Source: Kaistia geumhonensis (GTDB lineage: Bacteria > Pseudomonadota > Alphaproteobacteria > Rhizobiales > Kaistiaceae). From it: a DNA stretch of 64,000 nucleotides. This document shows positions 19,437 to 54,043 of this stretch, one piece after another; the stretch's first letter is position 1, and each line of letters starts with the position of its first letter. The notes under the pieces are model-generated. The model saw nothing but the letters and a program-made list of their open reading frames with translations. It did no database searches and was not told the DNA's origin. The DNA lies in NCBI RefSeq assembly GCF_030815145.1, contig NZ_JAUSWJ010000001.1, forward strand, positions 1,116,001 through 1,180,000. The letters are read 5' to 3'. Made by a program: the position numbers and the translations under genes.

Positions 19437-19525
19437 GAATTAAGCTTCGCGGCGACGAACCTCCTCCCTCGTCTCCGTGATCAGGCGGCCCGCGACCTCC
19501 TCCCCGCGTCGCCGCCCCTTCTGAG

Positions 19526-19563
19526 AAACGCCCGCCGATCTCCTCCCCGGCGGGCGTTTTTCT
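19526..19563 (+). terminator. Intrinsic terminator after the DUF1127 gene
   Basis: AAACGCCCGCC (19526-19536) pairs with GGCGGGCGTTT (19549-19559) around a 12-nt loop, and the T-run continues past the stem. It ends the DUF1127 transcript about 90 bp after its stop and insulates trmFO. Confidence 0.85.
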
Positions 19564-51239: not shown

Positions 51240-51629
51240 ATGACAGTCAACACCACCGCCACCCCGGACGCCGCCACGCTCGCCGCCCGCTATATCGCCG
51301 CCTGGAACGCCACCGATCCGGCCGAGCGGCGCCGTCTCATCGCAGAGGCCTTCACGGGCGACGCCAGCTATGCCGATCCCCTCGCCAGCGTCTCCGGCCA
51401 TGACGGGCTCGACGCGCTGATCGGCGCCATGCAGGAACGCTTCGCGGGTCTTTCCTTCCGTCTCGCCGGAAAGGCGGACGGCTACGGATCCAACCTGCGC
51501 TTCAGCTGGGAGCTTGCTCACGGGGGCGGCCCGGCGCTGGCGGGCGGGACCGACTTCGCGACCGTCTCGGACGGCCGGATCGGCCGCGTGACCGGCTTCC
51601 TCGACTTCGTGCCGGACGGCGTCGCCTGA
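51240..51629 (+). CDS. NTF2-like (SnoaL-type) protein
   Basis: This is a 129-aa protein with an NTF2-like alpha+beta barrel: AARYIAAWNATDPAERRRLI, the DPLASVSGHDGLDALIGAMQ pattern and a C-terminal beta region ending VTGFLDFVPD. Members act as isomerases, hydrolases or ligand-binding proteins. It is divergent from the XRE/MmyB regulator (141-bp gap), a recurrent pairing that suggests control by it. Its last 112 bp overlap the convergent AlkA gene on the other strand. Confidence 0.82.
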   Translation: MTVNTTATPDAATLAARYIAAWNATDPAERRRLIAEAFTGDASYADPLASVSGHDGLDALIGAMQERFAGLSFRLAGKADGYGSNLRFSWELAHGGGPALAGGTDFATVSDGRIGRVTGFLDFVPDGVA

Positions 51630-52489
51630 TCGGCGAGCGACGCCCAGAGATGAACCGTGGCGAGGCTGCGATGCGGTGCGAAGGCCCGCATCGCGGCCTC
51701 CTGCTCGGCCGGCGTCGGACGGCGATCAAGCCCATGCAGGCGCTGGAGGCCCGTGGCGAGGCCGGAATCGCCGATCGGCGCCGTATCGGCATGGCCGAAA
51801 CCGCGCAGCAGCACATAGCGCGCGGTCCACGGGCCAATGCCCGGCAAGGCGACGAGAGCGGCCTCGACAACGCCGGCCTCTTTGCCCGCCAGCGCATCGA
51901 GATCCGGCTGGCCTGCCGCAACGGCCGCGGCGACGCCGGTGAGATAGCGCGCCTTGGCACGGGAGAACCGCCGCGATGCGAGCGCCGCCGGATCGATCGC
52001 CGCCACCTCGGCGGGACCCGGATGGGCGACGAGCCCGCTCGGCGCGTGACGGATGCCCGCGAGATCGACCATCTCCCGGCGAAGCGCAGCCGCGAAGGTC
52101 AGGTTGATCTGCTGCCCGATCACCGCCCAGCAAAGCGCCTCGAACACGGTGGCGGTCAGCGGGATCCGCAGTCCCCGACGCGCACCGACCAGCGCCGCGG
52201 AGGCCGGATGCGCCTCGAAGGCGTCAGGGTCGGACAGGAGGCCCAGCATCCGCCGCGCCATGGTCTCGATGGCCGCCTCGGCCGCGTCCGACAGCGACCG
52301 GTCGGCCGAGAGCCGCGCCTCGTCGCCGGCGATCTCGAGCGTGACGAGCACCGGCCCGCCGTCTACGACGAGCGGTTTCTCGATCCGCGCGCCCGTGACG
52401 CGCTCCGAAAGGCTCGCCGGGTCGCGGCCGTGATAGGCGAGGACCTCCGCCGCCCGGTAGTCGGGCGGCAAGGGCATGACGCGGACCAT
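51518..52489 (-). CDS. DNA-3-methyladenine glycosylase II (AlkA-like, HhH-GPD)
   Basis: This base-excision-repair glycosylase of about 323 aa removes alkylated bases. Seen: FEALCWAVIGQQINLTFAAA, the hairpin LPGIGPWTARYVLLRGFGHA and APIGDSGLATGLQRL, whose Asp is placed as the HhH-GPD catalytic residue. Its ATG at 52489 shares one base with the stop of the upstream Ada-zinc-domain gene (TGATG), implying translational coupling. The final ~37 residues (after HLWASLADQA) are Ser/Pro/Arg-rich and antisense to the NTF2-like gene, so the original stop was probably lost. A second ATG at 52477 is possible. Confidence 0.88.
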   Translation of the reverse strand: MVRVMPLPPDYRAAEVLAYHGRDPASLSERVTGARIEKPLVVDGGPVLVTLEIAGDEARLSADRSLSDAAEAAIETMARRMLGLLSDPDAFEAHPASAALVGARRGLRIPLTATVFEALCWAVIGQQINLTFAAALRREMVDLAGIRHAPSGLVAHPGPAEVAAIDPAALASRRFSRAKARYLTGVAAAVAAGQPDLDALAGKEAGVVEAALVALPGIGPWTARYVLLRGFGHADTAPIGDSGLATGLQRLHGLDRRPTPAEQEAAMRAFAPHRSLATVHLWASLADQATPSGTKSRKPVTRPIRPSETVAKSVPPASAGPPP

Positions 52490-52680
52490 CAGGCCGCGCG
52501 GTCCGGCCGGCAGCGGAGGCACGCGCGATAGCCGGACGCCTCGGCGCCGGCGGCATCGGAGAAGAAGCGGACATTCTTCGGCAGCGGCGCCCGCGACGCG
52601 CAATCCGGCCGGCAATAGATGCCGGTCGTCGCCACTGCATAGAGCCGCGCCCCTGCCGGAAACGCCACCGTCGTCGTCAT
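52489..52680 (-). CDS. Stand-alone Ada metal-binding domain protein
   Basis: This protein of only 63 aa corresponds to the N-terminal zinc domain of Ada. Seen: LYAVATTGIYCRPDCASRAP with the C-x3-C pair (first Cys equivalent to methyl-accepting Cys38 of E. coli Ada), RFFSDAAGAEASGYRACLRC giving C-x2-C, and a terminal R-P-D-R. In Ada this domain takes methyl groups from DNA phosphotriesters and then activates transcription through an AraC-type domain, which is absent here. It is coupled to alkA by a TGATG overlap. It may be a sensor, a DNA-targeting partner of AlkA or a remnant of a fusion. The start is ATG 52680. Confidence 0.82.
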   Translation of the reverse strand: MTTTVAFPAGARLYAVATTGIYCRPDCASRAPLPKNVRFFSDAAGAEASGYRACLRCRPDRAA

Positions 52681-52759
52681 CGTTCGCCTCGTCGCTCGCT
52701 GATCGCCCAGCGGAGGATGCCGCCAGGTTGATCGCGGCAACACCCGTTTCCTGGCGCGG

Positions 52760-54043
52760 TCAGTGGCGGTCCTTCGCCCAGAGATAGAGGCCGATGCCGA
52801 CGCCCATTACCGAGAGGAAGACCAGGTAGTGGGCATGCGCCATGGGGTCGGATTTGAGCGCCACCGTGACGAGCAGCGGCGTCAGCCCGCCGAAGATCGC
52901 GTAGGCGATATTGTAGGCGAAGGAGACGCCGGTGAAGCGCACGGCCGGCGGGAAGGCCTTGACCAGCACATAGGGCACCGCGCCGATGACGCCGACTGAG
53001 AAGCCGGCGAGCGCCGAGAGAAGGAAGAGGCTCGACGCGTCGCTTGCGACCGAGGAATAGAAGTAGAAGGTCGCGGCGCCGAGGAAGACGCTGCCGAAGG
53101 TGAAGAAGCGGCCGGCGCCGATGCGGTCGACCGTGAGGCCGGCAAGCACGCAGCCGACCGTCAGGAACAGGGTCGCGATCGAATTGGCGGTCAGCGCCTC
53201 GCCGGCCGGGATCTTGTAGAGCGTCTGCAACAGCGTCGGCGTCATCAGGATCGCCACGACGATCGCTCCCGACAGCATCCAGGTCAGCAGCATCGAGAGG
53301 ATCGTGGCGCCCTTGTGCGCGCGCAGCACCTCGCCGAGCGGCAGGCCCGCCGAGAGCGCCTTCGCCGCCTTCAGCTCGCGGAACACCGGCGTCTCGTCGA
53401 GCCAGCGGCGGAGATAGACGGCAACGAGGCCGAAGACACCGCCGAGCGCGAAGGGGATGCGCCAGCCATAGGCCATCACCTCGTCGGGCGTGAACACGAC
53501 ATTGACGGCGGTCGCGATCAGCGAGCCGAGCAGAATGCCCGCGGTGAGGCCGCAGGTGAGGATGCCGCAGGCGAGGCCGATGCGATGGACCGGGACATGC
53601 TCGGACACGAAGGTCCAGGCGCCGGGCACCTCGCCGCCGATCGCCGCGCCCTGCAGCACGCGCATGGTGAGCAGGAGGATCGGCGCCGCGATGCCGATCG
53701 AGGCATAGGTCGGCAGCACGGCGATGCCGAGCGTAGAAAGCGCCATCAGCAGGATCGACAGCGTGAACATGCGCTTGCGGCCGAGCTTGTCGCCGAAATG
53801 CGCCATCACGAGCCCGCCGAGTGGCCGTGCCAGATAACCGGCGGCGAAGATGCCAAAGGCCTGCAACTGCTGCACCCATTCCGGAATCTCCGGCGGGAAG
53901 AACAGGTGACCGAGCACGGTCACGAAGAAGACGAAGATGATGAAGTCGTAGAATTCGAGCGCGCCGCCGAGGGCGGACAAAGCGAGGGTCTTGTAGTCGC
54001 GGCCGTCGAGCAGGCGACGGCCGGGGGCGGCAACTGCAGTCAT
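52760..54043 (-). CDS. MFS transporter, metabolite:H+ symporter (MHS) family
   Basis: This is a 427-aa twelve-helix transporter of the MHS (KgtP/ProP/citrate) branch. Seen: LGGALEFYDFIIFVFFVTVL (diagnostic G-x-x-x-E-x-Y/F-D in helix 1), FGDKLGRKRMFTLSILLMAL with the MFS A-motif, GAAIGGEVPGAWTFVSEHVP and RRWLDETPVFREL. MHS members take up organic acids or osmolytes with protons; the substrate is unknown. It stands alone, 80 bp from the Ada/AlkA pair on the same strand. Confidence 0.9.
   Translation of the reverse strand: MTAVAAPGRRLLDGRDYKTLALSALGGALEFYDFIIFVFFVTVLGHLFFPPEIPEWVQQLQAFGIFAAGYLARPLGGLVMAHFGDKLGRKRMFTLSILLMALSTLGIAVLPTYASIGIAAPILLLTMRVLQGAAIGGEVPGAWTFVSEHVPVHRIGLACGILTCGLTAGILLGSLIATAVNVVFTPDEVMAYGWRIPFALGGVFGLVAVYLRRWLDETPVFRELKAAKALSAGLPLGEVLRAHKGATILSMLLTWMLSGAIVVAILMTPTLLQTLYKIPAGEALTANSIATLFLTVGCVLAGLTVDRIGAGRFFTFGSVFLGAATFYFYSSVASDASSLFLLSALAGFSVGVIGAVPYVLVKAFPPAVRFTGVSFAYNIAYAIFGGLTPLLVTVALKSDPMAHAHYLVFLSVMGVGIGLYLWAKDRH

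Follow-up and report, generated by a model that had tools for sequence, protein, structure and literature searches.

A free-standing Ada zinc-domain protein overlapping alkA in Kaistia, a predicted repair effector of a Cada2-type response

Repair of methylphosphotriesters in DNA is usually read as signal capture, important for switching on Ada. In Bacillus subtilis, the functions of Ada are split over AdaA and AdaB, and AdaA keeps its zinc and AraC domains together; in actinobacteria, Ada–AlkA fusion proteins are found. What does an Ada zinc domain do when it is encoded alone, in a frame that overlaps alkA? Such a gene, here called adaZn, lies in Kaistia geumhonensis, within a 64,000-nucleotide stretch of DNA (contig NZ_JAUSWJ010000001.1, positions 1,116,001 to 1,180,000; ‘the window’) to which all coordinates refer. 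A first-pass annotation had suggested that the small protein either scans DNA for methylphosphotriesters and guides AlkA, or consumes them directly. Here we follow the gene through its genus, family and order, together with the regulator that may control it.

A zinc domain without a switch

The adaZn gene (52489–52680, minus strand) encodes a protein of 63 amino acids that was identified by open reading frame, Pfam match, alignment and predicted fold. A possible ribosome-binding site, GAGG (52687–52690, minus strand), lies 6 bases before its ATG. The protein matches Pfam Ada_Zn_binding (PF02805) with an E value of 2.1e-23 and 82.5 bits (cut-off 23), bearing out the initial description of a protein made of this domain only. 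The match covers profile positions 15–65 of 65; the first 14 positions, which we take to be the first helix of N-Ada, are absent. All four zinc cysteines are present, in the motifs C23-R-P-D-C27 and C54-L-R-C57, and align with C38, C42, C69 and C72 of E. coli N-Ada; they are invariant across the 12 aligned stand-alone proteins, the 7 AdaZn proteins of the genus among them. C23 is the predicted methyl acceptor, and C27, C54 and C57 are predicted to complete the zinc site.

An AlphaFold model computed from the seven AdaZn sequences has a mean pLDDT of 79.8 and a pTM of 0.62. Its best match in the PDB is 1u8b (E value of 1.3e-4, TMq of 0.69, 51% identity over 51 columns); 1zgw, 1wpk and 1adn, also N-Ada structures, are matched as well, and the sole further match has an E value of 9.6. 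The model thus predicts that the N-Ada fold is kept despite the missing N-terminal part, the loss of which could impair methyl transfer. Compared with E. coli Ada (1adn, 1u8b, 1zgw and 1wpk), AdaZn shares the zinc domain, the four aligned cysteines and the predicted fold, but lacks the AraC-type DNA-binding domain, the OGT domain and the N-terminal part of the zinc domain, and so does not have the architecture of E. coli-type Ada (EcAda). The genome (one contig, 4.59 Mb) contains exactly one PF02805 match, which leaves no EcAda there.

Overlap with alkA

The gene that follows adaZn is alkA (51518–52489, minus strand), which encodes a 323-amino-acid, DNA-3-methyladenine glycosylase II-type protein with an HhH-GPD domain (42.7 bits). 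D241, within GDSGL and presumably the catalytic aspartate, is invariant in 7/7 coupled AlkA proteins. As first noticed in the window, the TGA of adaZn and the ATG of alkA have one base in common (TGATG, 52487–52491, minus strand), and an overlap with the inferred alkA start recurs in every genome of the genus that has adaZn (TGATG in four, GTGA in two and ATGA in one). This arrangement of stop and start would couple the translation of AdaZn and AlkA. The two remain separate, overlapping open reading frames and not an Ada–AlkA fusion; the actinobacterial fusions likewise link a zinc domain to AlkA, whereas here there are two overlapping genes, with no AraC domain between them.

Upstream, a metabolite/H+ symporter-like protein of the MFS type (52760–54043, minus strand; Pfam and sequence) ends 4 bases from the candidate regulatory box described below. 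Downstream, a convergent SnoaL-like gene (51240–51629, plus strand; Pfam and sequence) overlaps the 3′ end of alkA, which extends 112 bases into it (51518–51629). The C-terminal tail encoded in this overlap (KSRKP...VAKSVPPAxAGP) is found in 4/7 coupled AlkA proteins. In several siblings, a stop truncates alkA and the translated match runs on past it; because the match continues where the sibling gene has already stopped, conservation of the SnoaL-like gene probably accounts for the tail.

Conservation and history within the genus

PF02805 was matched in all genomes of the genus but one (13 of 14) and in none of the 14 family genomes from other genera; the exception within the genus, G021, has a fragmented assembly (720 contigs). 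The 13 genomes comprise 6 with a canonical Ada and 7, including the window genome, with the short form, and the 6 canonical-Ada genomes have no adaZn. The canonical proteins are 372–405 amino acids in length, counted from the first possible start codon, with PF02805 and PF01035 matches in one frame and an AraC part recognized by eye.

These comparisons also settle whether adaZn is a frameshifted gene, a check that the first-pass annotation had named. No AraC domain follows adaZn; the next gene is alkA. The same free-standing gene occurs in seven genomes, with an AraC–OGT protein encoded elsewhere, and a frameshifted EcAda was rejected on these grounds. In addition, dN is lower than dS in all six adaZn pairs computed. 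The most extreme of these is L016/L018 (dS of 0.73, dN of 0.084), with values comparable to those of alkA; the window gene and L014 give a dS of 0.19 and a dN of 0.077. The ratios suggest that adaZn is under purifying selection.

All seven AdaZn proteins carry a new, short N terminus with the consensus MSTxxPFP, in which P8 is invariant. This start replaces the N-terminal part of the domain, which 7/7 alkA-coupled proteins lack, compared with 0/5 other stand-alone zinc proteins, which come from other families of the order.

In the 6 canonical-Ada genomes, alkA adjoins gor, SnoaL and XRE genes. The gor side is kept in five of the seven adaZn genomes (the window genome, L014, L016, L017 and L018), directly or with the symporter gene between, and the SnoaL and XRE genes are kept in four; L015 and L019 are rearranged. 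An AlkA tree groups the six canonical-Ada genomes in a single clade (100/99), whereas no branch separates the adaZn genomes from the rest in any of 200 bootstrap trees (0%). This topology tends to favour adaZn as the earlier state within the genus, with one swap to canonical Ada, and the direction of that swap is unsure given very distant outgroups. Two designs of the adaptive response have been swapped around one alkA locus within a genus.

A Cada2-type regulator and its candidate box

All seven adaZn genomes of the genus encode an AraC–OGT protein of 299–304 amino acids without a zinc domain; the copy in the window genome matches HTH_18, HTH_AraC and PF01035. Kamat et al. (2024, PMC10957082) describe Caulobacter Cada2 as an activator of the adaptive response that is switched on by methylation of its PCHR cysteine, in a paper that also attributes the activation of E. 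coli Ada to methylation of C38. RLHD and the PCHR cysteine are defining features of Cada2, which has no A-box domain and recognizes GCAA (B-box) and CGG (X-box) elements in its target promoters (PMC10957082). The AraC–OGT protein of the window genome has a B-box helix–turn–helix, RLHD and PCHR and has no A-box domain. RLHD and the PCHR cysteine are present in 30 of 31 AraC–OGT loci examined, including all 7 copies of the genus, in a listing that took only frames with an RLHD-like motif; L191 is the locus left off. By eye, the arginine of the Cada2 B-box motif is a lysine (LQKLF) in the genus proteins.

AraC–OGT was matched at E ≤ 1e-25 in 353 of 397 sampled genomes of the order, a count that includes weaker matches (about 1e-40) to canonical Ada; of the genus, five genomes with canonical Ada are in this sample, and they have weak AraC–OGT matches only. 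Every one of the 12 genomes with a stand-alone zinc gene has a Cada2 homologue and a single PF02805 match. The regulatory part, originally described as absent, is therefore absent at the locus, but not from the genome: a Cada2-type AraC–OGT protein is encoded elsewhere and a candidate box of its type precedes adaZn–alkA.

In 7/7 genus genomes the cada2 promoter carries GCAAGAATCGGGTGG(C/T) or differs from it only slightly; one of the seven was recognized with a looser pattern. The box is also present at 19 of 24 cada2 loci from other genera (one by a looser pattern); 4 have no box, and the remaining one, L191, is unoriented. We built a weight matrix from these 19 other-genus sites only, excluding all sequence from the genus. 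Scanned with this matrix, the top site of the 64-kb window is a candidate Cada2-type box, GCCAGGAAACGGGTGTTG (52738–52755, minus strand), 58–75 bases before the adaZn start, at 17.7 bits versus 10.9 for the next site. The site before adaZn also ranks first in 6/6 sibling loci of 12 kb (15.0–21.9 bits, next site ≤9.3), and the window score ties for second lowest among the seven. Given that a site of at least 17.7 bits occurs somewhere in 3 of 60 shuffled 64-kb windows, the box claim rests on position and recurrence and not on the window site alone.

The CGGGTG element is kept before adaZn in 7/7 genomes and is intact in the window, where the B-box GCAA is degenerate (CCAG). Elsewhere the B-box reads GCAA in three genomes (one with a longer spacer), GCAG in two and TCAG in the closest sibling of the window. 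Canonical-Ada promoters in the order often contain a GCAA...CGG core, so that only the CGGGTGG part discriminates. A CGGATGG or CGGATCG variant is present at alkA in 4 of the 6 canonical-Ada genus genomes and in the fragmented G021; the other two canonical-Ada genomes (L037 and L038) have no site at alkA. A loose whole-genome scan that allowed 2 mismatches had almost no power (61 sites versus 53 in the reversed control). Only the cada2 promoter matched exactly; the site before adaZn has 3 mismatches and so falls outside its list. Together, position and recurrence lead us to predict that adaZn–alkA belongs to the Cada2 regulon.

A near-perfect box, GCAAGAAACGGGTGGA, lies in the genome itself (L087, C1:1501594-1501609) between LysR-like and DUF1127-like genes, and a further candidate box lies near a purD-like gene (L103), all three genes being named by eye. 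GANTC, which CcrM methylates in the cell cycle, occurs within the operator in 20 of the 25 cada2 boxes listed (L163–L192; 18 GAATC and 2 GATTC), so the cell cycle may gate the adaptive response of bacteria with such boxes.

Stand-alone zinc genes across the order

Among the genes fetched from the order, a box of at least 12 bits lies within 350 nt upstream of 11 of 12 stand-alone zinc genes, 0 of 15 AdaA-like genes and 2 of 33 EcAda-like genes (Fisher 2.6e-9, a value that is uncorrected for relatedness and overstates independence, as the 12 genes come from four genera). The 12 are the 7 of this genus, G093 and G158, G107 and G303, and G194; the full set is at least 12, as order matches with intermediate open frames were taken in part only. 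The box of G158 is borderline (12.1 bits). The twelfth gene (L146, from G303) shares 8 bases with the 3′ end of a gene for an EamA transporter; the box, at 16.7 bits, lies in front of that EamA gene (L146:1935-3177), so an exporter may belong to the Cada2 regulon at this locus.

Searching for further stand-alone zinc genes beside alkA, as had been suggested, gave a divided answer. The pairing recurs in 7/7 adaZn genomes of the genus, but AlkA queries detected no alkA in the 4.3–6.2 kb around any of the 5 stand-alone genes from elsewhere in the order, which represent three genera. The coupling of adaZn to alkA therefore looks like a feature of this genus. Four of these five genes have the box directly upstream.

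As negative controls, the box was found at 0 of 14 alkB loci, so AlkB was rejected as a further target of the Cada2 box, and before neither of two genes (L337 and L345) for small stand-alone proteins with an Ada-like zinc domain. In these two proteins the acceptor cysteine is, by eye, replaced (IYGTLKCKSGKR), and they are possibly non-catalytic, zinc-binding relatives. Outside the order, the box precedes one of five new stand-alone genes (L240, 20.0 bits; L305, 9.6; L303, 1.9; L298, 0.3; L306, −5.0). The best 80 of 573 relatives include 2 loci with stand-alone genes: L193, by its length the contig of G024 again, and L240, from a Solibacter metagenome-assembled genome. Among the matches listed, 1 of 105 other zinc-domain genes has a site of at least 12 bits (L207, 12.0). 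When 21 further genomes of the order were rechecked, none of the six loci inspected closely held a new stand-alone gene that was complete and encoded the acceptor cysteine; G351 (L336) has a 52-amino-acid frame that matches positions 2–38 of the PF02805 profile.

Proposed function and alternatives

We propose that AdaZn is probably not a sensor but an inducible repair effector, a suicide methylphosphotriester methyltransferase, of a Cada2-type response, co-translated with AlkA. Methylation damage to DNA would lead to methylation of the PCHR cysteine of Cada2, as shown in Caulobacter and presumed here. Methylated Cada2 would then activate its own promoter and that of adaZn–alkA through a common box (a GCAA-type B-box, an A/T-rich spacer and CGGGTG), and the overlap of stop and start would couple the translation of AdaZn and AlkA; both steps have sequence support. 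Conservation and fold suggest that AdaZn folds around zinc through C23, C27, C54 and C57, and that C23 irreversibly takes the methyl group from methylphosphotriesters as AlkA excises N-alkylated bases. Sensing would sit in Cada2, which would make AdaZn a repair protein, in which only the repair chemistry of the E. coli sensor domain is left. That AdaZn binds zinc and accepts methyl groups, and that Cada2 binds the box and induces the operon, are predictions from sequence. Of the two options offered at the outset, direct consumption of methylphosphotriesters appears to fit best.

The other option, that AdaZn is a targeting or accessory subunit that scans for methylphosphotriesters and holds AlkA at damaged regions, seems to us unlikely. 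It would account for the adaZn–alkA overlap in 7/7 genomes and for the replacement of the N-terminal part by a short new start in 7/7 alkA-coupled proteins when 5/5 others retain that part, and actinobacteria offer a precedent in their Ada–AlkA fusions. However, two enzymes that belong to one regulon would be just as likely to be co-translated, and alkA was detected near 0/5 of the other stand-alone genes in the order, in the 4.3–6.2 kb searched. An obligate version, in which AlkA has AdaZn as its small subunit, loss of the N-terminal part exposes a surface for docking and a one-to-one complex brings the glycosylase to methylphosphotriester-bearing DNA, is likewise doubtful; if true, that complex would be a damage-guided base-excision enzyme.

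AdaZn might instead sense in trans, its methylated form helping Cada2 to bind or activate promoters and thereby restoring a split E. coli-type Ada. A Cada2 homologue in all 12 stand-alone genomes and the place of adaZn in the predicted Cada2 regulon agree with this reading, but we consider it distinctly improbable: the box is kept at five cada2 loci (L169–L172 and L179) from genera of the family that lack PF02805 (0/14 genomes), an E. coli-style AAT-N5–7-GCAA is absent from the 250 nt before all seven adaZn genes, and Cada1 is described as dispensable for induction in Caulobacter (PMC10957082).

It is very unlikely that the upstream box is the site of another regulator, such as GcrA/CcrM at GANTC, and its link to Cada2 accidental. 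GANTC is indeed found in 20 of the 25 cada2 boxes listed, and GcrA is reported to control ogt in Brucella (PMC6813329), but the box goes with cada2 and with Ada zinc genes that stand alone, not with alkB, and CGGGTG is kept in 7/7. GANTC is absent from the 110 nt before all seven adaZn genes, and a pure GcrA/CcrM site there was rejected. A decaying EcAda remnant with no present function, to which the missing N-terminal part might point, is the least probable reading, given four cysteines invariant in 7/7, dN below dS in 6/6 pairs, the alkA overlap and promoter site in 7/7 and an AlkA tree that does not favour EcAda as the older state of the genus.

In this genus, and it seems in three others of the order, the zinc domain survives without its switch, and its gene falls within the predicted regulon of a zinc-less sensor. 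Provided that AdaZn transfers methyl groups, a knockout in such a genome would test the value of backbone methyl removal in its own right. We suggest as an annotation rule that small ‘Ada metal-binding’ proteins in the order be treated as candidate Cada2 targets.

Relation to known systems

Published work already covers Cada2 and its box, and also that the zinc domain is separable (PMC10957082). Neither a free-standing Ada zinc protein nor one paired with AlkA was found in titles and abstract openings of the literature on Ada, AlkA and the zinc domain. The term ‘stand-alone’ is absent from the text of PMC10957082, the figures and supplements of which tabulate domain organisations and might list such forms. 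The box string was found in the literature only in seven papers on unrelated subjects.

The closest parallel is the Caulobacter response. In both, the regulator is an AraC–OGT protein with RLHD and PCHR and no A-box, and promoters carry GCAA and CGG, although GCAA is kept before adaZn in only three of the seven genomes. Caulobacter Cada1 has its zinc domain fused to OGT and is encoded in an operon with an alkB-like gene, and deletion of cada1 leaves induction unaffected (PMC10957082); its zinc domain is thus an operonic effector that is dispensable for induction. AdaZn differs in standing alone, in being shorter at its N terminus and in overlapping alkA. The box spacer is 4 bases in our count compared with 3 in the text of PMC10957082. 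The split of Ada functions over more than one protein also recalls AdaA and AdaB of B. subtilis, but there the zinc domain stays with AraC, from which that of AdaZn is separate.

Elsewhere in the window, positions 19442–19562 (plus strand) match the alphaproteobacterial small RNA ar14 (Rfam RF02344, 62.5 bits).
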